This document shows, piece by piece, positions 4,119 through 22,710 of a stretch of 29,821 nt of DNA (within the stretch, counting starts at the first letter, position 1; each line of letters opens with the position of its first letter). The position numbers and the translations under genes are program-made. A model generated the notes under the pieces. The model was not told the origin of the DNA, ran no database searches, and worked only from the letters and a program-made list of their open reading frames with translations. Source of the stretch: a virus; the IMG/VR virus record IMGVR_UViG_3300010392_000750, positions 1-29,821 of that record; one strand, written 5' to 3'.

Positions 4119-7100
4119 ATGTCAGATTTTAACATCAAGAAATTTTTAGCCGAGTCAGTGGATCCATTTTTAGCGACTCTAAAACAACATCCAGCAACCC
4201 AACAGTCTTGGGATGATGAAGATCACTTCTTCCAAAACGAACCAAAGCCAGTTATGTGCCCAGATTGCGAAGGCGAAGGAACACGTTTTGGTGATGATTG
4301 CACACGATGCGGTGGACACGGTGAAGTTTTTGAAAGTTCAGACGAACAAAACGTTGAGCATAGTGATCAAATGGATGATGAAGATTATGACGTTCCTGCA
4401 ATGGAAGGCTACGAATTCGGCGATATTGTTAACGGCTATGATCCAAGACTAATTGCACAAGATATGCTCGACGGCGGCATATCTGCTATAAGTGATGCAA
4501 ACTTTGATGATTTATATGCTCAGTATATGGGAAGCAACGGTGACCCATCTACAGTGTTCGATGACGATCTTAAAGAAGCAGTACGCAAAGCATACAAAGC
4601 AATCCTAAAGAATAAAGCAATGAGCGGTTCAGACTTCAACAAACTTCCAGGTTCAGACTTTAACGAAAGCGACGATGAGGAAGACATTAGTGTTAAGTAT
4701 CGCAAGAGTGCTAGCAATCCTTATGGAACTGAAGGCAACGGATACGATGACTCCCGTTTAGATCATGATCCAGACGAGCAGATCGACGAAGTAGGCGATG
4801 TGTTTATGAATGACCTATCACAGTTAAAAGAATTTGCAGGCATCGAAGAAACAGCTCCACAAGGCGCAGCACCTGCCGCACAACTTAAAGGCAAAGATAA
4901 GCTTAAAGGTAAAGGCGTTAAAGGCTATAACGATGCACATCCTGCGTCTGGTCAGTTAGTAGGCGAAACAGGCTTTGCTGGATCGGGTGGAAGCCCAGAC
5001 GACTGGGCAAGCCCAGCATACGATGAGCAACTAGCAGCCGCAGAACGAAATGTTGAAATGTTCTTAGGTGATACTGATCCTGAGAATGCAGCAGAAGAAG
5101 CTTTCACACTAGCAGTTGATGGCGCAATGGATGCAGGCGCATCTAGCGAAGAAGCAACTATGATAGGCCGCGAAGTTGCTGACGCTTATCGTGAAATGGG
5201 TATGGCTGCTGATTCAGAAATAAACAAAATGAAGAGCGATGCTGGAATCTTGACGGAGCCAATGGCTGAAGAGCCAGAAGCTCCAGAAGGACAATCTCCA
5301 GACGACATCTTTCGTAGCGTAATGGGTTGGGACGAAGAAGAAGCTACTCCTGTACAGGATATGCCTACTCAGCCAAAAGATTATGCTGAAGGCGATGAAG
5401 ATCCATTGGATGATATGAGTGAATTTAACGACGAAGACGCTGAATTCTTTGGATATGATCCACGCAGTCTTGAAGACGAATTGCTTGGCGAGTACGATGA
5501 CTTCGAAGACGACTATGAAGAAGACGACGACGAGTATTACGAAGAAGAAACAACCGTAAGAATTCGTGGTAGATCTCCTGAGCAAAGCTACTGGAACAAC
5601 AACGGTAAATTCCAAAACAAGATTGGAAAATTAGAAGAATTAATACCAGCACAAGACGAAGTAGACGATGCAGAAAACAACCCAGCACTAGAACGTTTTC
5701 GTTCTGCTGCTAATTGCTACTATGACGTTTACAACAACGGCTTATGGGACGAAGGGCGCGGACAGCGCGGCGAAGAGTTTGAAGAGCTATTTGGTTTAGG
5801 CGTAGGACATAACATTGACACCGGCGACTTAGAAGATTTAATAGACGATGTTGTACACGAAGCGTGGGAAGAGCAATCAGCTAAAGGCACCGTAAGCGAA
5901 GAACAACTGGATGAATTTCTTCCAGCACTAGCAGGCGCGGCAGTTGGTTCTATGCTGACTGACGATGACGATGACTTAATTGGTAAAGGCGATGTTGATG
6001 CTGGCGACAACTTAACAGTTTCTCCAGGTCAAACAGTACAAGTTGATTCAGCGTTAGGCGGTGAAGCTACAGTCGTAGCACAACGTTCTAACTATCTTGT
6101 TGTTAAGCTGCCGAAAGGTGGTATGAAACTATTGCGTGATGACGAATGGTGGATGAACGACGAAGATGAATTTGGCAGTGAAGATGGTTACGTTGATGTT
6201 GAAGGCGGCTACGAAGAGCCAGACGAATTAACATTTGAAGCTAAAGTTGACGGCTTTGACGAGCTTCCAATGAAAATGACACCGGGATCTGCTATTGAAG
6301 TTAGAAAGAACGGCGGCAAACGTCGATTGTTCCTTAACTACAACGGCGAACGTACAATAAAAATTCGTACTGCTGATGCAAAGATAGTCCGTAAAGGAAT
6401 TATTATTGGCAAAGATCCAAAAGATTTACTTCAGAAAATAAACAAAATGGGCTTTGCACCATATAACTATTCAGACTCAATGAACGAAGCGCCAAACGCA
6501 CTACAGAAAGTAGGCAAATGGGCGAAGCGTGGCTTCCAATGGGGCAGCGACGATACTCCGGGCGATATGGTTAAGCGTCATCAAGAATATGACACTGACT
6601 CTCTTAAAAACTTACAAGACAAGCCTGGGACTTGGAAAACTGGCCCAGCTAAGTTACAACAAAAATTAATCAAGCGTAACCTACGTAAGCGTGGCGAACG
6701 CGATTTTGAAAAGTACATGGACGAAAGCAATTTCGGCGATCGTAAACGTGAACACGAAGAGCTAGTTGCTAGATCTAAAGTACAAGGCAAACAGATCACT
6801 GACAAGATGGAACTTAGACGTCAAGCACAACAACGAATGGATGCTAAGAGAAATAAAGTTAAAGAAGATCAAGCATCGGTAATGCCACAACACGCGCAAG
6901 ACGATAGACAAAATCATTTCTTTAGCGAAGGCTACAAAATTATGCCTCCAATGGATCCTAAGTATGTTGAACGTGATGGATTAGAAGGTCCTTTCTCAAC
7001 GCACTCTGGCAAGGTAGTTTACTACGATCCTAAAGCTGGTAAGCATTACGATCCTGACACTGATATGTATATGGACTACGACGAGTTCGCAGAATACGAT

Positions 7101-9272
7101 CGCGATCCTGATATGATATACCCAGAATTTACAACTCCAGCACCTAAACCACGCGAACGTGGACGTATGGACGAGACTGGAATAGATACTGAAAAATATC
7201 CACAAATTGAAGGGAAACGTGGCCCATTCGTTAGAGGCGATGGCCACATTTATTACATAGATGTTGAAACTGGCAATTACTATATGCCAGACTCATTCGA
7301 CGAGCTGGACTACACAGATTTCCAAATGAAAGAAGCTAGTTACGGTTACGGACGTGATCACAACGACGAAATGCATAGCCTAGAAAATGACAAGGCATGG
7401 TTCAAGCGCCAAGAAATGCAACACGAGCTTGGACACGAAGATGAATGGAACAGACGTCAGCAAGCACAAGCAAGAATCAATCCAAGAACCGGACACCCAA
7501 TATCTCATGTCAAATATGACGATGATATGGACGAAGGCGCTTTCGGACCTATTGGCAAACGACTTGCTCGACGCAAGTTTAAAAAGCAAGCAAAAAACTC
7601 AATGAAGGCAGCAACAGACCAATATTTTGGTCCTGTACAAGATTATGATTTTGCTGATCCAGATCGTTTTCCAGAAGAAGACAAGTTCCGCGATCACATG
7701 GGCAACGAACGTCGATATTCACGAGCTGCTAAACGACTGGGCAGAGAAGACAATGAAAAGGCTTATCAAAAAGCAATTAAGAAGCACGACAAGCAAATGG
7801 GAGTGGAAGAAGGCAAGACAAGAACTTATACTGGCGATTTAGCTACAACTGAAGTGGAGCCACCATACGGCGGATTTTCCAGATTAGGAATGAAGGACTT
7901 AGCGGAGTGGATTAAACTACGCAAAGATCACCCACGTTGGGCAGAGATGGTTAAGAAAGCTAAGAAAGTATTAGCACAGAAGAAGTCTCACGCAAAGTTT
8001 ATGAAGGGCAATCGTCCACCACAAACAAAATACAAATACACAATCGCCAAGCAAGTAGGTGGCGATGATGGTTATCAGTGGGCAGTTATTGATAAGAAAA
8101 CTGGTCATGTTTTCATAAACGGACTTACAAGGCCCGAAGTAAAATATTACAGGGATCAAGCAGAAGCTGACCTTGCTAAGAAGTACGGCGTGGGCGAAAG
8201 CATTAATGAATACGAGTACGATACTAAAGACAAAGGCAAAGGCGCTGGTTGGTCTGCAGGTGGAGACGGTGGCAAGAAGAACCGTAAGAACCGTAAAGCA
8301 TTCCGTAAAGCAGAAAAGAAACGTAAGCACGATGCAATGATGCGCGGTGAGAAATGGGCACAGGAACCAGTAGACGAAGCCATCATACCGTGGGACAGCG
8401 AGCACAGTGAAGGTGATTTCGTAGACGATGAGTCTGGTCAAATCCATAGAGCAGATGATGTTATACAAGATCCCGAAACTGGTGAATGGCGCGAAAAAAC
8501 ACAACAAGAACAAATGGGTCCTGAAAAGTGGGCAGAGTTCGAACGTGAAGAAGAAAAATTACGAGCAGAACTCGATGCGCAATATGCAGCATGGGACGCA
8601 GAAGACGAAGCAGAAGCTAACGCAGGACCTCAAATATCTAAGATGGGTTGGGATGCTATTGGCGACTTCGGTGACGTAGCTGGCGGTGGAGGTGATCCTA
8701 TTGATTTTGTTATGCAAAAGTACGGACTTAATATGGAATCTATCGACGCAGAAGCTGTTAACCAAGGATATGCAGATGCGTATGAATGGGCTGAAAGCTA
8801 TCGAGATTTGCCTACCGAAGGACCAGAAATGGAAGAAAGCAGCAATTTTAAGAAAGGCTACAAGAACAAAGGCGGAGCATACACTCGTCCAGGTTCTGCA
8901 GATGAGAAAAGAGCTGGTGGAAAGTTTAATCGCAAAGATGCAAAAGGTAAAAGCGACGAAGAAGGTGCAGCGTGGGCAGAACGCAATCAAGTAAATGAAA
9001 TTGAAACTGCGTCCGACCAACTAGCATCCGATCGTGCAGGCGAAGCAGAACAGGGCTTGGGTGATACAAACAGTGATGTCCCAATGGGAATTGATTCTGA
9101 TGCTGAGTTAGCTGGTATGCAACAACTAATCAAAAACGTAATGCAAGAGCCAGACCAAGATATGGAACAAGCTATACAACAAATGGCTATGGCAAATACT
9201 GATCCAGCAGATGCAGAGCTAGGCACAGACGAAGTAGCGGACTTAAAGAACTTATTGGGGCTTCTTAAATAA
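4119..9272 (+). CDS. Giant acidic modular protein, putative packaged internal virion protein
   Basis: This 1717-residue protein is the largest in the window. It starts MSDFNIKKFLAE followed by S, a capsid-targeting-like leader with an L-A-E site. Residues 47-70 form a DnaJ-type zinc knuckle with C47, C50, C61 and C64 in two CxxCxGxG-like units. A very acidic zone follows (about 440-480), then a small beta domain near 630-680 and basic helical segments. Two related repeats lie near 957-990 and 1033-1066, sharing GPF, a Y-x-D strand, G-[KN]-[HY]-Y and P-D. A basic KNRKNRKAFRKAEKKRK stretch lies near 1387-1403. Many internal x-D/N-E-[AGSV] junctions separate the modules and could be processing points. 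No enzyme domain is recognised. A polyprotein-like core or injected protein is the inference; tail or scaffold roles are not excluded. Confidence 0.8.
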   Translation: MSDFNIKKFLAESVDPFLATLKQHPATQQSWDDEDHFFQNEPKPVMCPDCEGEGTRFGDDCTRCGGHGEVFESSDEQNVEHSDQMDDEDYDVPAMEGYEFGDIVNGYDPRLIAQDMLDGGISAISDANFDDLYAQYMGSNGDPSTVFDDDLKEAVRKAYKAILKNKAMSGSDFNKLPGSDFNESDDEEDISVKYRKSASNPYGTEGNGYDDSRLDHDPDEQIDEVGDVFMNDLSQLKEFAGIEETAPQGAAPAAQLKGKDKLKGKGVKGYNDAHPASGQLVGETGFAGSGGSPDDWASPAYDEQLAAAERNVEMFLGDTDPENAAEEAFTLAVDGAMDAGASSEEATMIGREVADAYREMGMAADSEINKMKSDAGILTEPMAEEPEAPEGQSPDDIFRSVMGWDEEEATPVQDMPTQPKDYAEGDEDPLDDMSEFNDEDAEFFGYDPRSLEDELLGEYDDFEDDYEEDDDEYYEEETTVRIRGRSPEQSYWNNNGKFQNKIGKLEELIPAQDEVDDAENNPALERFRSAANCYYDVYNNGLWDEGRGQRGEEFEELFGLGVGHNIDTGDLEDLIDDVVHEAWEEQSAKGTVSEEQLDEFLPALAGAAVGSMLTDDDDDLIGKGDVDAGDNLTVSPGQTVQVDSALGGEATVVAQRSNYLVVKLPKGGMKLLRDDEWWMNDEDEFGSEDGYVDVEGGYEEPDELTFEAKVDGFDELPMKMTPGSAIEVRKNGGKRRLFLNYNGERTIKIRTADAKIVRKGIIIGKDPKDLLQKINKMGFAPYNYSDSMNEAPNALQKVGKWAKRGFQWGSDDTPGDMVKRHQEYDTDSLKNLQDKPGTWKTGPAKLQQKLIKRNLRKRGERDFEKYMDESNFGDRKREHEELVARSKVQGKQITDKMELRRQAQQRMDAKRNKVKEDQASVMPQHAQDDRQNHFFSEGYKIMPPMDPKYVERDGLEGPFSTHSGKVVYYDPKAGKHYDPDTDMYMDYDEFAEYDRDPDMIYPEFTTPAPKPRERGRMDETGIDTEKYPQIEGKRGPFVRGDGHIYYIDVETGNYYMPDSFDELDYTDFQMKEASYGYGRDHNDEMHSLENDKAWFKRQEMQHELGHEDEWNRRQQAQARINPRTGHPISHVKYDDDMDEGAFGPIGKRLARRKFKKQAKNSMKAATDQYFGPVQDYDFADPDRFPEEDKFRDHMGNERRYSRAAKRLGREDNEKAYQKAIKKHDKQMGVEEGKTRTYTGDLATTEVEPPYGGFSRLGMKDLAEWIKLRKDHPRWAEMVKKAKKVLAQKKSHAKFMKGNRPPQTKYKYTIAKQVGGDDGYQWAVIDKKTGHVFINGLTRPEVKYYRDQAEADLAKKYGVGESINEYEYDTKDKGKGAGWSAGGDGGKKNRKNRKAFRKAEKKRKHDAMMRGEKWAQEPVDEAIIPWDSEHSEGDFVDDESGQIHRADDVIQDPETGEWREKTQQEQMGPEKWAEFEREEEKLRAELDAQYAAWDAEDEAEANAGPQISKMGWDAIGDFGDVAGGGGDPIDFVMQKYGLNMESIDAEAVNQGYADAYEWAESYRDLPTEGPEMEESSNFKKGYKNKGGAYTRPGSADEKRAGGKFNRKDAKGKSDEEGAAWAERNQVNEIETASDQLASDRAGEAEQGLGDTNSDVPMGIDSDAELAGMQQLIKNVMQEPDQDMEQAIQQMAMANTDPADAELGTDEVADLKNLLGLLK

Positions 9273-12387: not shown

Positions 12388-15282
12388 ATGTCGTACGTAG
12401 ATGCATTCCATGACAATGATATAATTCGTGTAGTAGAACGAGATGAGGCTGGAGAACGTAAGTTCCAAGTTTATCCTGCTGAGTATACGTTCTATGTGGA
12501 CGATAAGAATGGTGCGTACAAAACTGTTTATGACACACCTGTCAGTAAATACACTTGCAAGAACAAGAAGCAATTCCGAATCGAAGTGGCACAAGCAGGC
12601 GGGCAGGTATGGGAGAGCGATATCAAGCAAACAAATCGATGCTTGGAAACGTTCTACTCTCCGGAGAACACACTAACACCAGACTTGCACGTAGCGTTTT
12701 TTGACATCGAGGTAGACTTTGATAAAGAAAAAGGCTTTGCACCTCCAGACGATCCGTTTAATTATATCACTGCGATTACAGTTTACTTGCAGTGGCTTGA
12801 CCAACTCATTACCTTAGCAATTCCACCAAAATCTATGGCGTTAGACGTAGCTGAAGACATTGCTGCGAAGTTTGATAACACATTCATATTTACAGACGAA
12901 GGATTAATGTTAGAAACGTTCTTAGAATTGCTAGAAGATGTTGACATTATATCTGGTTGGAACAGCGAAGGCTTTGATATTCCATACACAGTTAACCGCA
13001 TCTCGCGCGTGTTAAACAAAGAAGACAATCGTAAATGGTGCTTATGGGATCAAATGCCCAAGAAGCGCAAGTTTGAAATGTACGGTGGCGAGCAGAATAC
13101 ATACGATTTAATTGGGCGTGTTCACTTGGATTATATGGCGCTTTACAAGAAGTACACATACCACGAAATGCATTCATATAGCTTGGACGCAATTGGCGAA
13201 CACGAAGTAGACGAAAAGAAAATAGAGTATGAAGGAACACTTGATCAATTGTACAACAATGACTTTGAAAAGTTCATAGCATACAACAGACAAGACACAT
13301 ATCTAATCCACAAGATCGACGTGAAGAATGATTTCATTGCGTTGGCATCTTCTGTTGCACACGGCAACACAGAACTAATTCCAAAGACAATGGGCGCGGT
13401 TGCGGTTACTGAGCAGGGCATTATTAACGAAGCGCATAGCTTAGGTTTCATTGTACCAAACAAAAGAAAAGAACAAGTAACAGAATTTGATCAGGCTGCT
13501 GGCGCATATGTTGCACATCCAAAGAAAGGCTTTTGGCAATGGCTAGCATCAATCGACATCAACTCACTGTATCCATCTGTGTTACGTGCTTTGAATATGG
13601 GACCTGAAACATTGATTGGACAAGTACGTCAAACAGATACGAACGCAATGATCCATGCATATTTGGATGAACACAAGTCGCACACATTTGCTGGAGCTTG
13701 GGAAGGAAAGTTTGCAAGCTTAGAATACGATTACATAATGGAAAAACGTACAGATACTAAAGTTATCATTGACTGGGAAACTACTGGCAATAACGAGACA
13801 GCAACAATGGCTCGTTTAGGAAATGCATCAACTGAATTAACGGGTAAAGAAGCGTACGAATTAATATACGAAACAAACCAACCGTGGATGATGAGTGCTA
13901 ACGGCACAATCTTTACGTATGAAACGAAAGCAATCATTCCTGGTTTGTTGGAGCGTTGGTACACTGAACGACAAGCAATGCAAAAGACTAAAAAGAATTT
14001 CGTTGCACTGCAAAACGCAGACGGAGACAAAGGCGTCTTTCTTCCAGCTGGCTTTGAAGATATAAAGGTTACAGGCGGCGTCGAACCAATGCGTGAACTA
14101 GACTGGGATGCATTGAATACAGCATTCGATAACGTTGACGTAAGAGCCGCAGAGAAGATCTTAGATCGATATAACGTAAGTATCGTTGACGGTGCTATTA
14201 TTCCTGACTCTGCTGACGCGAAATTAGCTGTAAACTACTGGGATAAGCTCCAATTAGTGCGTAAGATCGGCTTAAACAGCCTGTACGGCGCATTACTTAA
14301 CAAGCACTGTAGATTCTTTGATCAACGCTTAGGTCAAAGCACAACGCTTACAGGTCGCACGATAGCTAAGTTTATGGCGGCGTATGTAAATGAATGCATA
14401 GCTGGCGAGTTTGATCATACTGGCGAAAGCATTATATACGGCGACACAGACTCAGTGTATTTTAGTGCTCAACCTTTTACAGGTGAAGATACAGAATGGA
14501 CAGTTGAAATGGCCAACGAATTGTACGAAACAATATCAGATTCTGTAAACGACAACTTCCCAGGCTTTATGCAGCGAGCATTCCACAGTCCTAAGGACTT
14601 TGGACAGATCATTAAAGGCGGCAGAGAAATAACTGCGTCCACTGGATTGTTCTTAACTAAAAAGCGTTATGCAGCAATGGTAAAGGACTTAGAAGGAGAT
14701 CGCCAAGACATTGATGGCAAGCCAGGATACTTGAAGGCAATGGGCTTAGAACTAAAGAGATCTGATACTCCACCGCTTGTACAGGATTTCTTAAAGGATA
14801 TTTTAATAGACTTGTTGACCGATAAACCACGCGAAGATATATTTGAAAAGATTAGAATCTTCAAGCGCGAGTTCGCTGCAATGAAGAGTTGGGAGAAAGG
14901 TGCGCCTAAGCGCGTAAACAAACTAACCACGCACACTGCAATATACAACAAGACAGGCAAGTGTGGTGTTGGCCACGCTAAGGCAGCAATCCATTGGAAT
15001 ATGTTGCGCAAAGTTAACAGCGACAACTACAGTATGGAAATTTCAGATGGACAGAAATGCATTGTATGCAGACTGCGTAAGAACCCAATGGGAATGGACA
15101 GCATAGCTTATCCAGTTGACGAGCACAGACTGCCAGATTGGTTTAAAGAATTGCCGTTTGATGACAACGCAATGGAAGACTCAGTAGTCGACAAGAAAAT
15201 TGAAAACTTGTTTGGCGTATTGAAATGGAACATATCTGATTTCACAGACACAAGATCTACATTTAATTCATTATTCTCGTGA
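12388..15282 (+). CDS. 43: Family B DNA polymerase, T4 gp43 type
   Basis: The 964-residue product contains both activities of replicative family B enzymes. The 3'-5' exonuclease motifs are AFFDIEVDFD (about 103-112, Exo I), ISGWNSEGFDIPY (about 190-203, Exo II) and YNRQDTYLIHK (Exo III). The polymerase motifs are DINSLYPS (about 390, motif A), KIGLNSLYGAL (about 627, motif B) and IYGDTDSVY (about 684, motif C with the two metal-binding Asp). T4 gp43 is 898 residues, so this is slightly long, with no visible intein. It should work with the clamp encoded at 16253 and must accept or be followed by 7-deazaguanine modification. The stop overlaps the GTG start of the methyltransferase. Confidence 0.97.
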   Translation: MSYVDAFHDNDIIRVVERDEAGERKFQVYPAEYTFYVDDKNGAYKTVYDTPVSKYTCKNKKQFRIEVAQAGGQVWESDIKQTNRCLETFYSPENTLTPDLHVAFFDIEVDFDKEKGFAPPDDPFNYITAITVYLQWLDQLITLAIPPKSMALDVAEDIAAKFDNTFIFTDEGLMLETFLELLEDVDIISGWNSEGFDIPYTVNRISRVLNKEDNRKWCLWDQMPKKRKFEMYGGEQNTYDLIGRVHLDYMALYKKYTYHEMHSYSLDAIGEHEVDEKKIEYEGTLDQLYNNDFEKFIAYNRQDTYLIHKIDVKNDFIALASSVAHGNTELIPKTMGAVAVTEQGIINEAHSLGFIVPNKRKEQVTEFDQAAGAYVAHPKKGFWQWLASIDINSLYPSVLRALNMGPETLIGQVRQTDTNAMIHAYLDEHKSHTFAGAWEGKFASLEYDYIMEKRTDTKVIIDWETTGNNETATMARLGNASTELTGKEAYELIYETNQPWMMSANGTIFTYETKAIIPGLLERWYTERQAMQKTKKNFVALQNADGDKGVFLPAGFEDIKVTGGVEPMRELDWDALNTAFDNVDVRAAEKILDRYNVSIVDGAIIPDSADAKLAVNYWDKLQLVRKIGLNSLYGALLNKHCRFFDQRLGQSTTLTGRTIAKFMAAYVNECIAGEFDHTGESIIYGDTDSVYFSAQPFTGEDTEWTVEMANELYETISDSVNDNFPGFMQRAFHSPKDFGQIIKGGREITASTGLFLTKKRYAAMVKDLEGDRQDIDGKPGYLKAMGLELKRSDTPPLVQDFLKDILIDLLTDKPREDIFEKIRIFKREFAAMKSWEKGAPKRVNKLTTHTAIYNKTGKCGVGHAKAAIHWNMLRKVNSDNYSMEISDGQKCIVCRLRKNPMGMDSIAYPVDEHRLPDWFKELPFDDNAMEDSVVDKKIENLFGVLKWNISDFTDTRSTFNSLFS

Positions 15283-16220
15283 CACATACAGAACTATTAT
15301 TATTTCGTGATCGCCTAATAAGGCTACGACTTGACGAGCTAGGTGACGCAGCCATAGCTCGTCAATATGATATTGGCAAACTGATGGACGATTATCCAGA
15401 AGATGAAGTTTGTCCTTTTATGGATAAGTTGCTGGAACACGCTATATTAAATATCAACAGTTTGAATTCATTAGTAGCACAACACATAGCAGAAATCGAA
15501 ATCGACATTCGCGAGTCAACAGTCAAGCACGTAACCGCCGACAACGAGCACTGGGCACAACACAATGTTCGTTTTAAGACAGCTGAATACAACAGAGATT
15601 ATCGACAATTGCCAACTACTGAAGATGCGGCAACTCTTATACGCTCTAGGATTGGATTCTACACTGACTGGAGATTTCCTGGGTTAGAAATTGGTCCTGG
15701 CGATGGTGCGTGGACTGATATGCTTGTAGCGTGTGATCCATTGTATCTAATAGATCATAACGACGAATGCTTGGTTACTACAAAGAGCCAATTCAGTCCA
15801 AAATATCAAAACAGATTGCGGTGTTACACAAACCGCGGCGAAGGTTTACATATGTTGCCGCAAGATCAATTTGGTTTTGTGTTTAGTTGGAACACGTTTA
15901 ACTATTTTTCATTTAATCAAATTCACGACTATCTCGGAGATATCTGGGATGTTCTAAGACCGGGCGGAGCTTGTATGTTTAGTTACAACAACGCTGAACG
16001 CCCGTTATGCGCTAGACGCGCAGAAGATTTGCTTATGACGTTTGTACCAAAGTCAATGCTAGTAGGAATGCTAGAAGGATTTGGGTTTAAGCAGATCAAA
16101 ACACAAGACGTAGATTCAACCGTATCATGGGTTGAATTTCGAAAACCGGGTCAGCTAGAGAGCAATCGAACTGGCCAAACACTTGGTAAGATAATTTTAA
16201 CGCCACACGTTATAGCATAA
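15279..16220 (+). CDS. Class I SAM-dependent methyltransferase
   Basis: The 313-residue product starts with GTG overlapping the polymerase stop (GTGA). After a helical N-terminal part of about 110 residues comes a Rossmann methyltransferase domain: GLEIGPGDGAWT (135-146, SAM-binding loop), LIDHNDE (157-163), FVFSWNTFNYF (200-210, post-II acidic/aromatic region) and DVLRPGGACMFSY (224-236). There is no DPPY/NPPY motif, so a DNA N6-adenine or N4-cytosine methyltransferase is unlikely; a small-molecule, protein or modified-base substrate fits better. Its position between polymerase, clamp and the 7-deazaguanine genes makes a role in base tailoring possible but unproved. Confidence 0.82.
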   Translation: MTHTELLLFRDRLIRLRLDELGDAAIARQYDIGKLMDDYPEDEVCPFMDKLLEHAILNINSLNSLVAQHIAEIEIDIRESTVKHVTADNEHWAQHNVRFKTAEYNRDYRQLPTTEDAATLIRSRIGFYTDWRFPGLEIGPGDGAWTDMLVACDPLYLIDHNDECLVTTKSQFSPKYQNRLRCYTNRGEGLHMLPQDQFGFVFSWNTFNYFSFNQIHDYLGDIWDVLRPGGACMFSYNNAERPLCARRAEDLLMTFVPKSMLVGMLEGFGFKQIKTQDVDSTVSWVEFRKPGQLESNRTGQTLGKIILTPHVIA

Positions 16221-16252: not shown

Positions 16253-16984
16253 ATGAGAGATCAACTAGTGGATATTGTAAACCACACTCATAAACTTGGT
16301 ATTTTTGATACCATTAAGGTAATTGGCGATGACGCTAGCACTTTGTTAGAAGGTGAAGCTGAAGATAAGTCAGTTATTATGCGAGCAGAATTTTTGAATC
16401 CTGCGGCAGAATTCGAAGGCACATTTGGTATGCCGGGGATTGGTCAGCTTTCAACATTGTTGAACTTGGACGAATACCAAGCAGACGCTAGCATTTCGGT
16501 AACAAAGGAAGTGAAGAATGGCGAATCAGTTCCAGCTGGCGTTCATTTCGAAAACTTGGGTGCAACATTTGAAAACGATTACCGTTTTATGACAACAGCA
16601 CTTGTAAACGAAAAGCTTAAAACATTAGAGTACAACGAGCCGCCGTATGAAGTAACACTGGAGCCATCTATGATTAGCATTCAGCGTCTACGTCAGCAAA
16701 GTTTGGCTAACGCTAATGAATTGCTATTCACAGCAGTGGTAGCAAACGGTGATTTGATTTTCAACTTTGGAGATCACAGCACAAACTCTGGTAAATTTAC
16801 ATTTGCTAACAATGCAAATGACAAGCTTAACAAACGCTGGGCATATCCTGTATCACAAGTAATGGGAATCTTAGCACTAGCAGGCGAGATTGAAATGAAG
16901 TTTAGCAACGCCGGCGCGTTGGTTATTACTTGCAACTCAGGCTTAGTTAAGTACACATATATTTTACCAGCACAAGCAAAGTAA
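16253..16984 (+). CDS. 45: Sliding clamp, T4 gp45 type
   Basis: The product has 243 residues (T4 gp45 has 228). It shows the layout of a two-domain phage clamp subunit: an N-terminal domain ending near 120 and a second domain with FTFANNANDK and the C-terminal strands ALVITCNSGLVKYTYILPA. The trimeric ring tethers DNA polymerase and, in T4, also couples late promoters to RNA polymerase through gp33 and gp55, which fits the late boxes here. A good ribosome site, GGAGAG, precedes the ATG. The call rests on size, the strand pattern and the position beside polymerase; clamp loader genes are not in the window. Confidence 0.82.
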   Translation: MRDQLVDIVNHTHKLGIFDTIKVIGDDASTLLEGEAEDKSVIMRAEFLNPAAEFEGTFGMPGIGQLSTLLNLDEYQADASISVTKEVKNGESVPAGVHFENLGATFENDYRFMTTALVNEKLKTLEYNEPPYEVTLEPSMISIQRLRQQSLANANELLFTAVVANGDLIFNFGDHSTNSGKFTFANNANDKLNKRWAYPVSQVMGILALAGEIEMKFSNAGALVITCNSGLVKYTYILPAQAK

Positions 16985-16993
16985 GGGCATAGT

Positions 16994-18574
16994 ATGTCTA
17001 AACCAGAACAGGATAATTTAACAGCGAAGCAAGGCGATTACGCAATGTTTTTGCCGTCTATTAGCAGTTTTTACGTCAATTACATCAGTAAACAGTATCA
17101 CGAAGAGTTCGTTAAGAAAAGTCGTATACCGTTTGCCAATGGTATGGAAGCACTCAACTTCTTTAACGAGCAGGACGGTAACTTCACATACAAGTGGGCA
17201 TTGTACTCTGGTGGACACGCTGTACTAGATGTCAACAAACCAACACCGCAGGAAGATATGATTCGCAAGCGTGACCGCAATAAGACGTGGTTACTAGGCG
17301 ACTCGGGTGGATTCCAGATTGCGAAAGGTGTTTGGGATGGCGACTGGAAAGATCCTGCTTGTCCAAAAGCACAGAAGAAGCGCGAGCTTGTATTGAAGTG
17401 GCTGGACGAGTATATGGACTATAGCATGGTACTTGATATTCCTGCGTGGTTGCGCCGTATTCCTGGTGCAAGCGACAAGACTGGTATTTACACATTTGAT
17501 GATGCTGTCAAAGGTACACAGTATAACCACGACTACTTCATGAAACATAGACGCGGCGCTGAAAACGGTGGTACCAAATTCTTAAACGTACTGCAAGGCG
17601 AGAATCACGCAGAGTCGGATGAATGGTACAGAATTTTCAAAGACTACTGTGATCCTGCTGTATATCCTGACACGCACTTCGAAGGATGGGCGTTTGGTGG
17701 GCAGAATATGTGCGACTTGCACCTTACATTAAAACGCATAGTAGACTTCCACTTTGATGGATTGCTAAAAGAAGGCGTACACGATGTTATTCACTTACTT
17801 GGAATGAGTAAGCTGGAATGGGCTGTGCTGTTAACTGACGTGCAACGTGCGGCGCGTAAGTATTACAACCCAGCACTGTCAATAACATTTGACGCAGCAA
17901 GTCCATTCTTAGCGACAGCTAATGGACGCATATACACAACACTTAGAACAACACACGACACGAAGTGGACATACAAATCCGAAGCAAGCTTGGATGACAA
18001 CTCATACACAAGCGACACACGAAGCTATAAAGATGCAGTGTTGAACGATGGTCACTACAAAGTATTTGATGACAGTCCTATTATGGATGAGTGCAAGATT
18101 AACGATATTTGTTTCTATCCACCGGGATCTATCAACAAGCAAGGCAACGTGGCAAAGACTTCATGGGATACGTTTAGTTACTGTATTCAAATGGGTCATA
18201 ATGTTTGGAGTCATATCAATGCTGTACAACAAGGCAACAGAGATTATGACAACGGCCAAATACCTAAGATGCTTATTCCAACAGGACAATCCGACGGAGC
18301 AACGTTTAGAGAAATAGTAGATGCTATATTCTCTTGTGACAAGCGCGAAGATGCTTATGCTATTATTGATCACTACGATCGTTATTGGATGCGTATAGTT
18401 GGATCGCGTGGACTTACAGGCAAGAAGACCAAAAATGCTAGCGGGCAGTTTGACCAGTTGTTTGCTGTAACAGAAAGCACCGCAGAGCCAGCAATTGAAA
18501 CTCCAGTAACAGATAAGCTGGAAGCGTTAGAAGAAACAGTATCCGAGTCAACGTTCACAACATTATTCAAATGA
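16994..18574 (+). CDS. dpdA: DNA guanine transglycosylase, DpdA/TGT-like
   Basis: The 526-residue product belongs to the tRNA-guanine transglycosylase superfamily, in the DNA-acting DpdA branch found in phages. Visible motifs are WLLGDSGGFQ (99-108, substrate Asp103 and the SGGFQ loop), MVLDIPAW (145-152, base-recognition Asp148), NVLQGE (198-203, Gln), GWAFGG (231-236) and SITFDAASPF (296-305, candidate nucleophile Asp300). DpdA swaps guanine in DNA for a 7-deazaguanine base such as preQ0. The C-terminal part (about 310-526) is not typical of tRNA enzymes. QueC, FolE and QueE are encoded downstream, supplying the base. The modified DNA should resist host restriction. The ribosome site AAGGG lies at 16983-16987. 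Confidence 0.9.
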   Translation: MSKPEQDNLTAKQGDYAMFLPSISSFYVNYISKQYHEEFVKKSRIPFANGMEALNFFNEQDGNFTYKWALYSGGHAVLDVNKPTPQEDMIRKRDRNKTWLLGDSGGFQIAKGVWDGDWKDPACPKAQKKRELVLKWLDEYMDYSMVLDIPAWLRRIPGASDKTGIYTFDDAVKGTQYNHDYFMKHRRGAENGGTKFLNVLQGENHAESDEWYRIFKDYCDPAVYPDTHFEGWAFGGQNMCDLHLTLKRIVDFHFDGLLKEGVHDVIHLLGMSKLEWAVLLTDVQRAARKYYNPALSITFDAASPFLATANGRIYTTLRTTHDTKWTYKSEASLDDNSYTSDTRSYKDAVLNDGHYKVFDDSPIMDECKINDICFYPPGSINKQGNVAKTSWDTFSYCIQMGHNVWSHINAVQQGNRDYDNGQIPKMLIPTGQSDGATFREIVDAIFSCDKREDAYAIIDHYDRYWMRIVGSRGLTGKKTKNASGQFDQLFAVTESTAEPAIETPVTDKLEALEETVSESTFTTLFK

Positions 18575-18819
18575 TGAACTGGTGGCAACCAATCTACGAG
18601 GCTCTAGTAAAGAAAGAGCCCGAACCAAGGACAGAGCCGTGTCCAAAATGCGGCACAATGGATTGTATTACTAGCGAAGAATATCGCAAACACATTAAGA
18701 TTGAAGGTGCTGGTCAATTAAGTGTCGACTCTAAGATACTTACTAAATCATGTAAATTTAGACAACAACTTATACAAGCAAAACAAATAGTAGAACACAC
18801 GAGGAAGAATCTCAAATGA
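18571..18819 (+). CDS. Small Cys-containing hypothetical protein
   Basis: The 82-residue product overlaps the dpdA stop (ATGATGA), with two possible adjacent Met starts. It holds CPKCGTMDC (about 24-32) and a later SCKF; these four Cys could bind one zinc ion. The C-terminus is basic and helical. It is unrecognised. Its place inside the dpdA-queC operon suggests an accessory role in the modification, perhaps DNA or enzyme binding. Confidence 0.68.
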   Translation: MMNWWQPIYEALVKKEPEPRTEPCPKCGTMDCITSEEYRKHIKIEGAGQLSVDSKILTKSCKFRQQLIQAKQIVEHTRKNLK

Positions 18820-19325
18820 AAAGACAATTCGAAGATAAAAAAGACGTAGTATATTACACTGGCATCAATGTTGAACGAACATTGGCGTACGGTAAGCAAA
18901 CACTATTCCTAAACGAATTTCGCGCAGCCAAAATGGTTATGGACATTGCCGCAGATAGAGAATGTGAACATATTTACATTGGTGCTAACGGCACGTTTCG
19001 ACCAAAGAACAACGAAGATTGGTCTTTGTATGAAGTCTTAGTTGAAGGCTTAACAGCAGGTGGTTACTTAGTCACTATGGAGCACAACTTAACACAATCT
19101 GCTTGGTTCTTGGATAGCTGTTTTGCAGACAACAATATGGTCATACCAGTTTTGACTGTGGAGATCCCATACATTGCACAATATGGTAACAACTCTGCTC
19201 TGAAAATTACAGATAAGAGTTTTGGTGAAACCAATCCTGGTGTTTGGGTACACAGTTACAACGACATTACTAAGACTGATGCGTTTACACACTGGAACGA
19301 CTATAAGGATGATAAAGCGATATGA
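18816..19325 (+). CDS. Unrecognised protein between dpdA and queC
   Basis: The 169-residue product overlaps both neighbours by four bases, so it is firmly inside the modification operon. Noteworthy stretches are VVYYTGINVERTLAYGKQT (about 11-29), CEHIYIGANGTF (about 47-58), YIAQYGNNSALKITDKSF (about 118-135) and NPGVWVHSYNDI (about 139-150). It looks like a soluble alpha/beta domain with conserved-looking Asn, His and Trp positions, but I cannot assign a family. It shows no QueD zinc motif, no QueF signature and no amidotransferase motif. By position it is the best candidate for an accessory or tailoring factor in 7-deazaguanine synthesis or insertion. Confidence 0.82.
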   Translation: MKRQFEDKKDVVYYTGINVERTLAYGKQTLFLNEFRAAKMVMDIAADRECEHIYIGANGTFRPKNNEDWSLYEVLVEGLTAGGYLVTMEHNLTQSAWFLDSCFADNNMVIPVLTVEIPYIAQYGNNSALKITDKSFGETNPGVWVHSYNDITKTDAFTHWNDYKDDKAI

Positions 19326-20089
19326 AAGAACTTAACGTAATCACAAAAGGACGCGAGATAGCCAAAGGTAAATCGGTGTTGCTGTTTAGCGGCGGGATGG
19401 ATTCGGTAATGTTTGACTTGCTCTTAAAGCCGGACATTTTGCTGTACGCTCCAACTGGTTCTAACTATGAAACAATTGAAACACAGAAGATCAAACAGTT
19501 AGCAAAGGACAACATTATTGATGAGCAGAAGCTGATCATAATGGACGAGACTATTAACTTGGCTCCGTTCGAGCGCGATGATTTGATTGTCCCTAACCGC
19601 AATGCGTACTTGGTATTGCTAGCTTCACACTTTGGTGAAACTATTTACTTGGGTTCTGTGTATGGTGACCGTTCGTTTGACAAGGACAAGACATTCTACG
19701 CACTGATGGAAGGCCTGCTCAACCATATGTGGAGCGAACAACACTGGACAGAGGAACGTGTATTCAGCGTGAGCTCTCCATACAAGGACACAACTAAGAC
19801 AGAGCTTATCAAAGAGTACGAGCTTGCTGGTGGTGATGTTCAAAACATACTGGATTCATATAGCTGTTACAGAGGCGAAGAGCAAGCTTGTGGAATATGC
19901 AAGCCGTGTGTTCGTAAGGCTGTATCACTAATTTGTAATTTTGTAGCAATACCAGACGATTACTTTGAACAGCATCCAATGTCAGCTCCGTGGATTGAAG
20001 AGTTGCTCCCACAGATGGTGGAAGGCAAATATCGCGGACGCGAAGATGCAGAATTTATTACTGCAATGAAGTTGACAGGCTGGTTGTAA
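19322..20089 (+). CDS. queC: 7-cyano-7-deazaguanine (preQ0) synthase QueC
   Basis: The 255-residue product has the PP-loop ATPase signature LLFSGGMDS (20-28), the PNRN box (91-94), KDTTKTELI (155-163) and the zinc site C182, C190, C193, C196 in SCYRGEEQACGICKPC. QueC converts 7-carboxy-7-deazaguanine to preQ0 with ATP and ammonia. It is not fused to a glutamine amidotransferase domain, so preQ0 rather than an archaeosine-type amidine is the expected product. It is slightly longer than the usual 220-235 residues because of its C-terminus (about 215-255). It overlaps the genes on both sides (ATGA upstream, TAATG downstream), consistent with coupled translation with dpdA. Confidence 0.95.
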   Translation: MKELNVITKGREIAKGKSVLLFSGGMDSVMFDLLLKPDILLYAPTGSNYETIETQKIKQLAKDNIIDEQKLIIMDETINLAPFERDDLIVPNRNAYLVLLASHFGETIYLGSVYGDRSFDKDKTFYALMEGLLNHMWSEQHWTEERVFSVSSPYKDTTKTELIKEYELAGGDVQNILDSYSCYRGEEQACGICKPCVRKAVSLICNFVAIPDDYFEQHPMSAPWIEELLPQMVEGKYRGREDAEFITAMKLTGWL

Positions 20090-20466
20090 TGGACGCAACC
20101 GACCCTGAATACAACGGCGCGTTAGATCCTGAAGAACAGCATCGCGCGTATATGGATCTGCAGCGCAAAACACTTATGAAAGATGCGCTCAATATGGCGC
20201 GTGTACGTTACTCTATTACAGTCGGCACTCGCGTATACAATTACAAAGTTTACATACAAATTTGGCAAGACGATGACTTCAACTATGAAGAATTTCTCGA
20301 CTTCTGTAAAAAACTTACAGTGAATGAAGTGGAGCTAAATACTAATAGTTACAAAGCAATGGCAGACCAATTATACAACTTATTAGCGATTGGGATGCCA
20401 GGACGTAGCATATGGATATGTATCAATCAAAATGATACTGGTATAACAATACAATACGAACAATAA
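20089..20466 (+). CDS. Hypothetical protein downstream of queC; possible divergent QueD-like fold
   Basis: The product has 125 residues. The C-terminal 85 residues run in the order seen in the QueD/6-pyruvoyl-tetrahydropterin synthase T-fold: strand YNYKVYIQIWQ (around 49-59), EEFLDFCKKL, a helix NSYKAMADQLYNLL (around 83-96), and strands SIWICINQNDTGITIQYE. The zinc-binding His triad and catalytic Cys of QueD are not present (Y-N-Y stands where H-G-H is expected), so if it is related it is not a normal enzyme. This is a by-eye alignment and is uncertain. The gene overlaps queC by TAATG. Confidence 0.72.
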   Translation: MDATDPEYNGALDPEEQHRAYMDLQRKTLMKDALNMARVRYSITVGTRVYNYKVYIQIWQDDDFNYEEFLDFCKKLTVNEVELNTNSYKAMADQLYNLLAIGMPGRSIWICINQNDTGITIQYEQ

Positions 20467-20479
20467 CTTGGAGCCTTCC

Positions 20480-20737
20480 ATGGCACATTATAACAAAAAG
20501 AACAAGCAACAAAAGCCCCGCGGCATGAAGCCGGAAGTAATTAAGATCTTCGAGGAGCTAGAAGAATACCACGATTATTGCAGATTTCAATTATGCAAAT
20601 TTGACGAAGCAGATTTATTCAAATCTAAAAACTGGCAGCGTTTCAATGAAGCCCGTAAACGCAAAGCAGCATTTGAACAGCGCGAAGCAAAGCGCGAAGC
20701 AAAGAAACTAGCAGAGCAACAAGCAAAACAGGCGTAA
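20480..20737 (+). CDS. Small highly charged helical protein
   Basis: The 85-residue product is basic at both ends, with a Tyr/Cys-containing middle (YHDYCRFQLCKFDEADLF) and a long charged C-terminal helix carrying the REAK repeat. The ATG at 20480 follows TTGGAG (20468-20473) at a good distance and is preferred over the in-frame TTG at 20468. It is unrecognised; a protein- or nucleic-acid-binding helix is the only structural inference. Confidence 0.75.
   Translation: MAHYNKKNKQQKPRGMKPEVIKIFEELEEYHDYCRFQLCKFDEADLFKSKNWQRFNEARKRKAAFEQREAKREAKKLAEQQAKQA
20680..20703 (+). repeat. Tandem 12-base duplication
   Basis: GCGCGAAGCAAA occurs twice in direct succession. It keeps the frame and encodes REAK twice in the C-terminal helix of the gene at 20480, an example of recent in-frame duplication. 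Confidence 0.9.
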
Positions 20738-20740
20738 CCA

Positions 20741-21025
20741 ATGATTAAGTATATGAACGACATTGACTTGTCGAACTACGGCTTATATTTAGAATCAACA
20801 TCTATCAAAGCAGATGCAATCAATGCAACGGTATCAATGGAACTTACTATACCTAGCGGTGTGTTAAATTCCAGCGATACCGTTGAAAACTTAGAACGAT
20901 TTTACTTAGATCTAAAAATGATGAATGCATTAAAGGGCAACTTCACGCCAGCAGTTCAAACCCATTATGAAGAGCTACTAATTTTGTTAGCTTTAAGTAA
21001 CGACACCGCAAAAAAAGATAAATAA
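20741..21025 (+). CDS. Hypothetical protein with YEELLILLAL C-terminal motif
   Basis: The 94-residue product is unrecognised. A second in-frame ATG at 20753 (MNDIDLSNYG) is an alternative start. The C-terminus PAVQTHYEELLILLALS (about 70-86) closely matches the C-terminus of the gene at 25235, although the rest of the two proteins is unrelated. It ends within the box GATAAATA at 21017-21024. Confidence 0.72.
   Translation: MIKYMNDIDLSNYGLYLESTSIKADAINATVSMELTIPSGVLNSSDTVENLERFYLDLKMMNALKGNFTPAVQTHYEELLILLALSNDTAKKDK
21017..21024 (+). promoter_or_regulatory. Possible T4-type late box GATAAATA
   Basis: The sequence matches the late box used elsewhere in the window but lies within the last codons of the upstream gene, 65 bases ahead of folE. 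A late promoter for folE would be unexpected, so this may be coincidence or a second, late start. Confidence 0.35.
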
Positions 21026-21089: not shown

Positions 21090-21770
21090 ATGTCTTTAAA
21101 CAAGCAAAAATGCGATCCTGAACTTGGACTCGCGGTACACAAACACTTAGAATCACTCGGCTTAGAAACGCCAAAAAGCGACAGCTCATTAACCGTCAAA
21201 GAACGTATTGCTCTTATCGAGGAAGACTTCAGACGCATAATGGTAACACTAGGCTTAGACTTAACTGACGACAGCTTAATCGACACCCCAAAACGTGTAG
21301 CAAAAATGTATGTAAGCGAAATCTTTTACGGATTAGATTACGACACATTTCCAAAATGCACAGCAATCGACAACAAATTTAAAGCAGACGAAATGATCAT
21401 TGAACGCAATGTCAATGTTATGACAAACTGCGAACATCACTTTGTTGTGATTGATGGTCTAGCAACAGTTGGTTACATTCCAGAAGGAAAGGTAATTGGA
21501 CTTAGCAAGATTAACCGTATTGTTGAATACTTCAGCAAGCGACCACAAGTACAAGAGAGACTAACAGCTCAAATTCATGCTGCTCTGTGTTTCATATTGA
21601 AAACAGATCACGTAGCTGTAATGATCGATGCAAAGCATTATTGCGTAGCATCTCGCGGTATCGAAGATACTGGATCATTCACTACGACTAGCAAACTTTC
21701 AGGAGCTTTTAAAGATCCTAAAGAAGGTGCTAGACAGGAATTTATGGCTATTGCAAATAGCTCTAAGTAA
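21090..21770 (+). CDS. folE: GTP cyclohydrolase I FolE
   Basis: The 226-residue product matches the type I enzyme over its whole length. Zinc ligands and active-site blocks are present: NCEHHF (113-118; C114, H117), IGLSKINRIVEYFSKRPQVQERLT (136-159) and HYCVASRGIED (183-193; C185). It turns GTP into 7,8-dihydroneopterin triphosphate, the first step toward 7-deazaguanines. Here it should feed QueE, QueC and DpdA rather than folate synthesis. It has its own promoter and a strong ribosome site, so it is set apart from the dpdA-queC operon. A nine-pair hairpin follows its stop. Confidence 0.96.
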   Translation: MSLNKQKCDPELGLAVHKHLESLGLETPKSDSSLTVKERIALIEEDFRRIMVTLGLDLTDDSLIDTPKRVAKMYVSEIFYGLDYDTFPKCTAIDNKFKADEMIIERNVNVMTNCEHHFVVIDGLATVGYIPEGKVIGLSKINRIVEYFSKRPQVQERLTAQIHAALCFILKTDHVAVMIDAKHYCVASRGIEDTGSFTTTSKLSGAFKDPKEGARQEFMAIANSSK

Positions 21771-21816: not shown

Positions 21817-22710
21817 ATGAAGAAAATTAAAGTAAGCGAAATGTTCTATTCCATTCAGGGAGAGGGCAAATACGTGGGCGTACCTAGTATATTCCTGCGC
21901 ACTTTTGGATGTAACTTAACCTGTGAAGGTTTTGGTATGCCAAAAGGAATGAAATCTAACGATAGATTCAGTCACGAAATTGAAGTGGCTACTGTTGGTG
22001 CGAAGTCAATACACGAACTTCCGCTAGTAGAAACAGGATGTGATTCATACGCATCTTGGGACGTAAGGTTTAAAAACCTTAGCCCAGCTAAAACAACTGA
22101 TGCAATAGCGCAGGAACTAATTCGGTTTATTCCAAGCTGCCCATTTTCTTGGGCTGGAGTACATTTGATTATAACTGGCGGTGAACCACTGTTAGGTTGG
22201 CAGCGCGGTTATGTTGAATTACTCGAGCACGAATACCTGTCAACATTGCGCAACATTACATTTGAAACGAACGGTACGCAGAAGTTACACAAAGACTTCG
22301 AGGAGTACTTGCGCAAGCACAAAACAGCACGTGGTTTGGATCATTATTTGTTAGCAGCTCGTCGGACATTGGACTTCAACTTTTCAATAAGTCCAAAGCT
22401 ATCAGCAAGCGGAGAAGACCCTGCTGTATCAATCCAACCAGATATTGTTGCATTGTATGGCGAACTAGGTGAAGTTAACCTTAAGTTTGTATGCAACACA
22501 GAAGATCACATCATTGAAGCACTTGACGTAGTTTCACAATATAAGGCTGCTGGTCTCAAGGATCACAACATTTGGATTATGCCAGAAGGCGGAATGTCAA
22601 CTCGTTACAATGCACACGCGAAGCCAATGGCAGAGCTTTGCATGAAATATAAACTAAACTACAGTCCAAGATTGCACGTTGATTTATTTGGCAATGCGTG
22701 GGCAACATAG
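21817..22710 (+). CDS. queE: 7-carboxy-7-deazaguanine synthase QueE (radical SAM)
   Basis: The 297-residue product starts with the standard QueE N-terminus (VSEMFYSIQGEGKYVGVPS). The radical SAM cluster motif is unusual: C32 and C36 (CNLTC) are followed not by the usual nearby third Cys but by an insertion (GFGMPKGMKSND and on), then C75 in TGCDSYASWD. Other blocks are TGGEP (120-124), FETNGT (149-154) and IMPEGG near the C-terminus. It makes 7-carboxy-7-deazaguanine from 6-carboxy-tetrahydropterin. It is longer than most bacterial QueE (210-250), largely because of the insertion. It appears to have its own promoter abutting the ATG. Confidence 0.93.
   Translation: MKKIKVSEMFYSIQGEGKYVGVPSIFLRTFGCNLTCEGFGMPKGMKSNDRFSHEIEVATVGAKSIHELPLVETGCDSYASWDVRFKNLSPAKTTDAIAQELIRFIPSCPFSWAGVHLIITGGEPLLGWQRGYVELLEHEYLSTLRNITFETNGTQKLHKDFEEYLRKHKTARGLDHYLLAARRTLDFNFSISPKLSASGEDPAVSIQPDIVALYGELGEVNLKFVCNTEDHIIEALDVVSQYKAAGLKDHNIWIMPEGGMSTRYNAHAKPMAELCMKYKLNYSPRLHVDLFGNAWAT

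Follow-up and report, generated by a model that had tools for sequence, protein, structure and literature searches.

A phage gene family that accompanies DpdA, and its putative place in a QueC-less 7-deazaguanine modification of DNA

Results

A run of overlapping genes with dpdA and a gene of a family without a name

We analysed a 29.8-kb IMG/VR virus record, which over its whole length is referred to here as the window. At positions 18816-19325 of its + strand lies an ORF of 169 aa, running from ATG to stop, whose product represents a family that we call FAM. The genes around it are as follows.

15279-16220, + strand: methyltransferase-fold protein (Pfam Methyltransf_25, E 5.3e-9), a neighbour in 71 of 185 FAM loci
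16253-16984, + strand: presumed sliding-clamp-like protein upstream of dpdA (161 of 185 loci)
16994-18574, + strand: DpdA-type DNA guanine transglycosylase, 526 aa, with DSGGFQ and TFDAASPF (hhalign 82.5% to ACP17 gp123)
18571-18819, + strand: g82, small protein with CPKCG..C cysteines, in the window only
18816-19325, + strand: FAM, family without a name; no match in Pfam, PHROG or NCBIfam; AF2 model pLDDT 85.8
19322-20089, + strand: QueC-like protein (Pfam PF06508, E 6.9e-14) with SGGMDS, PNRN and C(x)7CxxCxxC and without YxQxHxxE
20089-20466, + strand: g125, conserved partner (116 of 119 FAM loci), C-terminal part weakly QueD/PTPS-like
20468-20737, + strand: g89, small conserved neighbour (64 loci in the first set, 135 of 185 later)
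20741-21025, + strand: 94-aa protein at the place usually held by a glycosyltransferase in most other FAM loci; no GT4 profile match
21090-21770, + strand: FolE, GTP cyclohydrolase I (Pfam PF01227, E 2.6e-58)
21817-22710, + strand: QueE, radical SAM CDG synthase (PHROG 2076, E 1.6e-50), with QGEG, GGEP and ETNG

The product of 16253-16984 we take to be sliding-clamp-like from its position; in Phosso, the gene at a like place is annotated as a sliding clamp. ACP17 gp123, the relative of the window's DpdA, is a match to the TGT superfamily and is related to proteins of phages nt-1 and KVP40. The likeness of the C-terminal part of g125 to a small PTPS profile is weak (hhalign P 0.021), and the g82 profile matched no locus of the first set other than the window (also listed as L084). 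The QueE of the window has no compact C..C..C arrangement; a long insert separates GCNLTC from the next cysteine, unlike in the short cellular QueE. Upstream of the replication genes there is an acidic-looking 1717-aa ORF (4119-9272).

A first-pass annotation of this DNA had claimed four-base overlaps on both sides of FAM, and the gene boundaries bear this out. Three ATGA overlaps link the end of dpdA (18574) to the start of g82 (18571), the end of g82 (18819) to the start of FAM (18816), and the end of FAM (19325) to the start of queC (19322). The stretch GAGGAAGAA lies directly 5' of the FAM ATG, and FAM may therefore have its own ribosome site besides being translated by coupling. The two motifs singled out in the annotation both occur in the protein, where residues 50-61 read CEHIYIGANGTF and residues 140-151 read NPGVWVHSYNDI. 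Conservation across the family falls on HIYfGAN.SF and NPGVWcHslhdL.

FAM looks like a phage family

Among the 599, 598 and 600 candidate stretches listed in three IMG/VR scans, 466, 551 and 584, respectively, encode relatives of FAM. FAM is a real gene: the first of these counts, and the residues that are invariant across all 63 sequences of the alignment (63/63), make the ORF more than a product of chance. The best 80 loci per scan were retained for analysis, and 185 distinct ORFs were found among the 239 best-match loci, duplicates being judged by identical last 400 bases. A scan of IMG/VR with the single FAM protein gave nothing useful.

The family comes almost entirely from uncultivated phages; only 13 records of cultured phages contain FAM (tblastn), 11 of the PA5oct/Paride type and two of ACP17. 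In 84,980 genomes of bacterial and archaeal species there were only four matches, three of them adjoining DpdA and one a likely chimera, and FAM therefore looks like a phage family. As for an apparent hemA-FAM fusion in L088 (1913-2890, a Flectobacillus MAG contig), in which FAM forms the C-terminal part, a chimeric contig is the likelier explanation, because the N-terminal part reads by eye as a host glutamyl-tRNA reductase.

FAM accompanies DpdA, GT4 and g125

We counted linkage only for ORFs with enough flanking sequence (165 upstream, 119 downstream), and many of the loci are relatives of each other and hence not independent events. Among the best-match loci, 165 distinct FAM ORFs have 3 kb or more of upstream sequence, and DpdA is present at 164 of them; the sole exception is L179, on a 21-kb fragment. 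In the first set, DpdA is present at 80 of the 80 loci. The first-pass annotation was thus right to place FAM with the modification enzymes, and the link to dpdA survives a search for homologues that do without it, since these almost never occur. In 180 of 181 loci DpdA lies upstream of FAM and shares its strand, and in 49 of the 181 the two genes overlap or are at most 5 bases apart. Such a neighbour might be a non-catalytic partner of DpdA, which binds DpdA or DNA and sets the site or the amount of guanine exchange; that the window keeps FAM though GT4 was not found there and QueC is present would suit this role too.

Of the 119 FAM loci with at least 4.5 kb downstream, 117 encode GT4, a group-1 glycosyltransferase, and 116 encode g125. 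The loci without GT4 are L021 and L179; L023, a relative of L021, carries GT4 on the opposite side. In a reverse search from GT4 (80 loci, 74 of them distinct, 53 with at least 6 kb upstream), FAM was found in 51 of the 53. The other two, L319 and L321, are Phosso-like, and no FAM was found in their contigs or in Phosso. DpdA is present in Phosso and in the L319 contig, and a search of the L321 contig for DpdA found none. Phosso, BUCT-ZZ01, L319 and L321 all have GT4 and g125 with no FAM detected; FAM is not obligatory.

Reciprocal co-occurrence of this kind is what would be seen if FAM were a protein of the sugar step, preparing the base for GT4 or assisting it, and in X1 and L317 a compact FAM-like ORF runs four bases into the start of GT4. 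We nevertheless regard this role as unlikely, as the four genomes just named have GT4 with no FAM detected and the window has FAM with no GT4 in its 29.8 kb, though GT4 may sit elsewhere in that phage.

Many FAM loci have nearby genes of the epimerase/GDP-mannose-dehydratase type and of the phosphomannomutase type. QueE (PHROG 2076) is strong in 19 of 21 large FAM records, FolE is present in 89 of the 185 loci, and PTPS in 17 of 33 records, many of which are fragments.

QueC of the window type is absent from other FAM loci

The description of FAM in the first-pass annotation as locked between dpdA and queC stands in its dpdA half (164/165) and fails in its queC half. Gene-neighbourhood analysis showed the window to be the exception: a QueC matching the window profile is found in none of the 239 other FAM loci, and a true FAM-queC lock is rejected. 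Nor is there a QueC (PF06508) in the three complete genomes searched, a PA5oct-type genome, Paride and ACP17 (0/3).

Two further sets of FAM records gave one PF06508 match above the cut-off each (1/50 and 1/30). The one in the set of 50 is NadE-like by eye, and the one in the set of 30 is a 192-aa QueC-like ORF distant from FAM (L104), judged from its motifs by eye. The PF06508 matches in L099 to L103 were rejected as QueC by eye, L099 and L102 being NadE-like in their motifs and L100, L101 and L103 being other N-type ATP-pyrophosphatases. The QueC-like protein of the window itself also has a weak match to QatC. The YxQxHxxE motif is reported for canonical QueC in PMC13329287.

FAM in cultured and independent lineages

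In PA5oct-type genomes the clamp, DpdA, GT4 and g125 genes stand together and FAM lies some 28 kb from them; FolE is elsewhere, as are two PTPS genes, QueE is at 87 kb, and QueC was not found. ACP17 carries QueD, FolE, FAM, a DpdA2-type transglycosylase, GT4, g125 and QueE in one stretch. FolE, QueD and QueE are therefore all present in both, and two kinds of transglycosylase accompany FAM, the window type, to which the DpdA of the PA5oct type belongs, and the DpdA2 type of ACP17. The DpdA2 of nt-1 and the dPreQ0 of that phage are described in PMC6884629, and DpdA2 phages of the nt-1/KVP40 kind gave no FAM match.

These genomes bear on two other explanations. The partnership with DpdA raised above is doubtful, as FAM also occurs with the DpdA2 type, in the PA5oct type it is GT4 and g125 that stand beside DpdA with FAM far off, and the DpdA2 phages of the nt-1/KVP40 kind have no FAM match. 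The order polymerase-clamp-DpdA-FAM is common to most loci, which are related phages, and FAM might be a hitchhiker of this replication block, with its own role outside base modification. We think this very unlikely, since FAM tracks GT4 and g125 and its association persists where the gene order is broken (PA5oct type, ACP17, L023 and L040).

DpdA, GT4, g125, FAM, FolE, QueD and QueE are encoded in LC727697.1 and in other genomes of the PA5oct/Paride type (L001, L002, L085, L086, L105). In these Pseudomonas jumbo phages, DpdA, FAM, g125 and most copies of GT4 are annotated as hypothetical, which points to a DNA modification of the 7-deazaguanine type that has gone unreported.

Xanthomonas phage X1 and the IMG/VR locus L317 encode DpdA2, GT4, g125 and FolE (X1 also QueE) together with a compact protein of 127-143 aa. 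The GT4 of X1 scores above the Pfam Glycos_transf_1 cut-off (45.5 versus 26.4 bits). In X1 (L306, 6091-7279), FolE is separated from the compact FAM-like gene by a short ATP-pyrophosphatase that is PAPS-reductase-like and by a 215-aa protein, possibly a substitute for QueC.

The window is atypical

The window is atypical in that queC is present, GT4 is absent and FAM is diverged. Within its 29.8 kb no GT4 profile match was better than E 0.55, and no QueD was recognisable. Of the 49 columns with a conservation of 90% or more, its FAM differs from the family at 15 (family median 0), the changed positions including E18, D89, D132 and H149; only the FAM of ACP17 departs more (17 of 49). One reading is that the phage of the window may have changed the finishing step, and that FAM drifted along with it.

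A predicted fold weakly resembling QueE

We compared AF2 models of the window FAM and of L018 (pLDDT 92.3) with known structures. The models order their strands and helices as beta-(beta-alpha)n, which we interpret as a half-barrel. Foldseek against the PDB gave nothing at E 0.001 or better for either model, and a BFVD fold search returned the ACP17 homologue only (E 2e-6). In VIA-align, the QueE rows had 97-129 aligned residues, rmsd 2.5-4.9 and Z 5.5-6.4. The window model gave Z 6.3, rmsd 3.5 and 123 aligned residues with 5th5, and Z 6.4, rmsd 2.5 and 97 residues with 6nhl; the L018 model gave Z 6.2, rmsd 3.3 and 129 residues with 5th5. Among rows aligning at least 115 residues, a QueE chain had the top Z in each list, although the Z values of QueE are below 8 and tied with rows of STAS and ThrRS-editing domains. 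These domains were rejected as the identity of FAM in spite of their top Z rows; most STAS rows span only about residues 7-115.

Profile comparison gave little more. With hhalign, FAM against 32 cellular QueE reached a probability of 4.4%, equalled by 2 of 100 column shuffles, and its score of 23.8 compares with 23.1 for g125, an unrelated family. The local alignment pairs FAM columns 53-106 with QueE 77-123, in the register expected by eye. Against phage QueE the probability was 1.1%, and PDB sequence searches with FAM profiles gave spurious or weak rows only.

The highest cysteine column of FAM is occupied in 52 of the 73 sequences of an alignment of 72 of the 73 representatives (all except L267:3787-4233) plus the window; the structure alignments omit L001-L003. 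The window FAM has two cysteines, at positions 50 and 102. No cysteines are conserved in FAM, and it is therefore not a radical SAM enzyme, for which three cluster cysteines would be expected. A carboxylate-amine ligase (GxExE motif) was considered by eye and also rejected.

Discussion

FAM probably belongs to a modification module. Since the transglycosylase, g125, GT4 and, in the larger records, QueE are nearly constant and QueC is not, the branch with FAM would leave the preQ0 route at 7-carboxy-7-deazaguanine (CDG). We propose that FolE, QueD and QueE make CDG; that FAM, as a small alpha/beta half-barrel resembling QueE without the iron-sulfur cluster, may bind it, and either convert its 7-carboxylate or hand the base to the transglycosylase; that DpdA (or DpdA2) would then swap the base into DNA; and that GT4 would decorate it. 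As a whole, the statement that FAM is a component dedicated to a normally QueC-less, DpdA-dependent 7-deazaguanine DNA modification with CDG handling and GT4 decoration is possible rather than probable, and we offer it tentatively. Against it stand the low and tied scores for QueE, the genomes with GT4 and g125 in which no FAM was detected, and the window, which keeps FAM despite having queC and no GT4 in its 29.8 kb.

We take FAM to be a CDG-handling component from its modelled QueE-like fold and from the pathway, with a partner of DpdA and a helper of GT4 as close rivals; that CDG is the ligand FAM contacts is a possible but somewhat doubtful part of the proposal. For the putative product in DNA, a fair guess would be a glycosylated 7-deazaguanine, given that GT4 belongs to the group-1 glycosyltransferases and that genes of the sugar-nucleotide type often lie nearby. 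The suggestion of the first-pass annotation that the gene could set the final chemical form of the base fits the gene context. A bolder version is distinctly unlikely: FAM would be a former QueE that, having given up radical chemistry, now converts CDG, providing a handle for the phage glycosyltransferase after DpdA insertion. In that case glycosylated 7-deazaguanine would be a hypermodification both widespread and undescribed, found also in cultivated Pseudomonas phages of the Paride/PA5oct type.

If the proposal is true, phages including the Pseudomonas aeruginosa PA5oct/Paride types carry a modification branch that stops at CDG and continues with glycosylation, which would explain why they keep FolE, QueD and QueE without QueC. 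FAM, GT4, g125 and DpdA would be the four genes to search for, and a direct test would be possible in cultured phages.

Further phage 7-deazaguanines have reportedly been found by Cui and colleagues (2023), who are said to have predicted a CDG decarboxylase, DpdL. Our literature search found no co-mention of DpdL with 7-deazaguanine. The available text of the papers covered, including PMC6884629, PMC13329287, PMC12783734 and PMC9025141, holds no description of the FAM family, which may nonetheless be in print; we regard its novelty as provisional.

Among known systems, the phage DpdA/DpdA2 7-deazaguanine systems resemble the FAM genomes in having FolE, QueE and DpdA or DpdA2 in one genome (PMC6884629, available part). 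FAM genomes show the linkage to DpdA/DpdA2 and the FolE, QueD and QueE of a DpdA pathway; the QueC of a preQ0/dG+ pathway is normally missing. The groups described in that part of PMC6884629 have either DpdA alone or the complete pathway to dG+ or preQ0, QueC included, whereas the FAM module has no QueC and adds GT4, g125 and FAM. The likeness to the QueC family of phage defence (QatC and Cap9; PMC13329287, available part) concerns the QueC of the window and not FAM.

QueE (5th5, 6nhl, 4njg) is the best whole-chain structural match of both models, with the same strand order by eye and the same pathway context. FAM differs from it in having no conserved cluster cysteines, in being shorter and in showing no significant sequence similarity, and the window, like most large FAM records, carries a separate QueE gene besides FAM.

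The compact GIEVEG protein of X1 and L317 has, like FAM, a G.EVE...TLFC start and a TGDI-type end, and adjoins GT4, DpdA2 and g125. It is unlike FAM in its length of 127-143 aa and in being without NPGVW. A search by regex for additional compact FAM proteins, over eight loci of cultured phages and two of the PA5oct type, found X1 only. Compared with FAM by hhalign, the compact protein gave P 0.0035, with a score above those of 15 control families, and judged from these sequences it is likely a relative of FAM.
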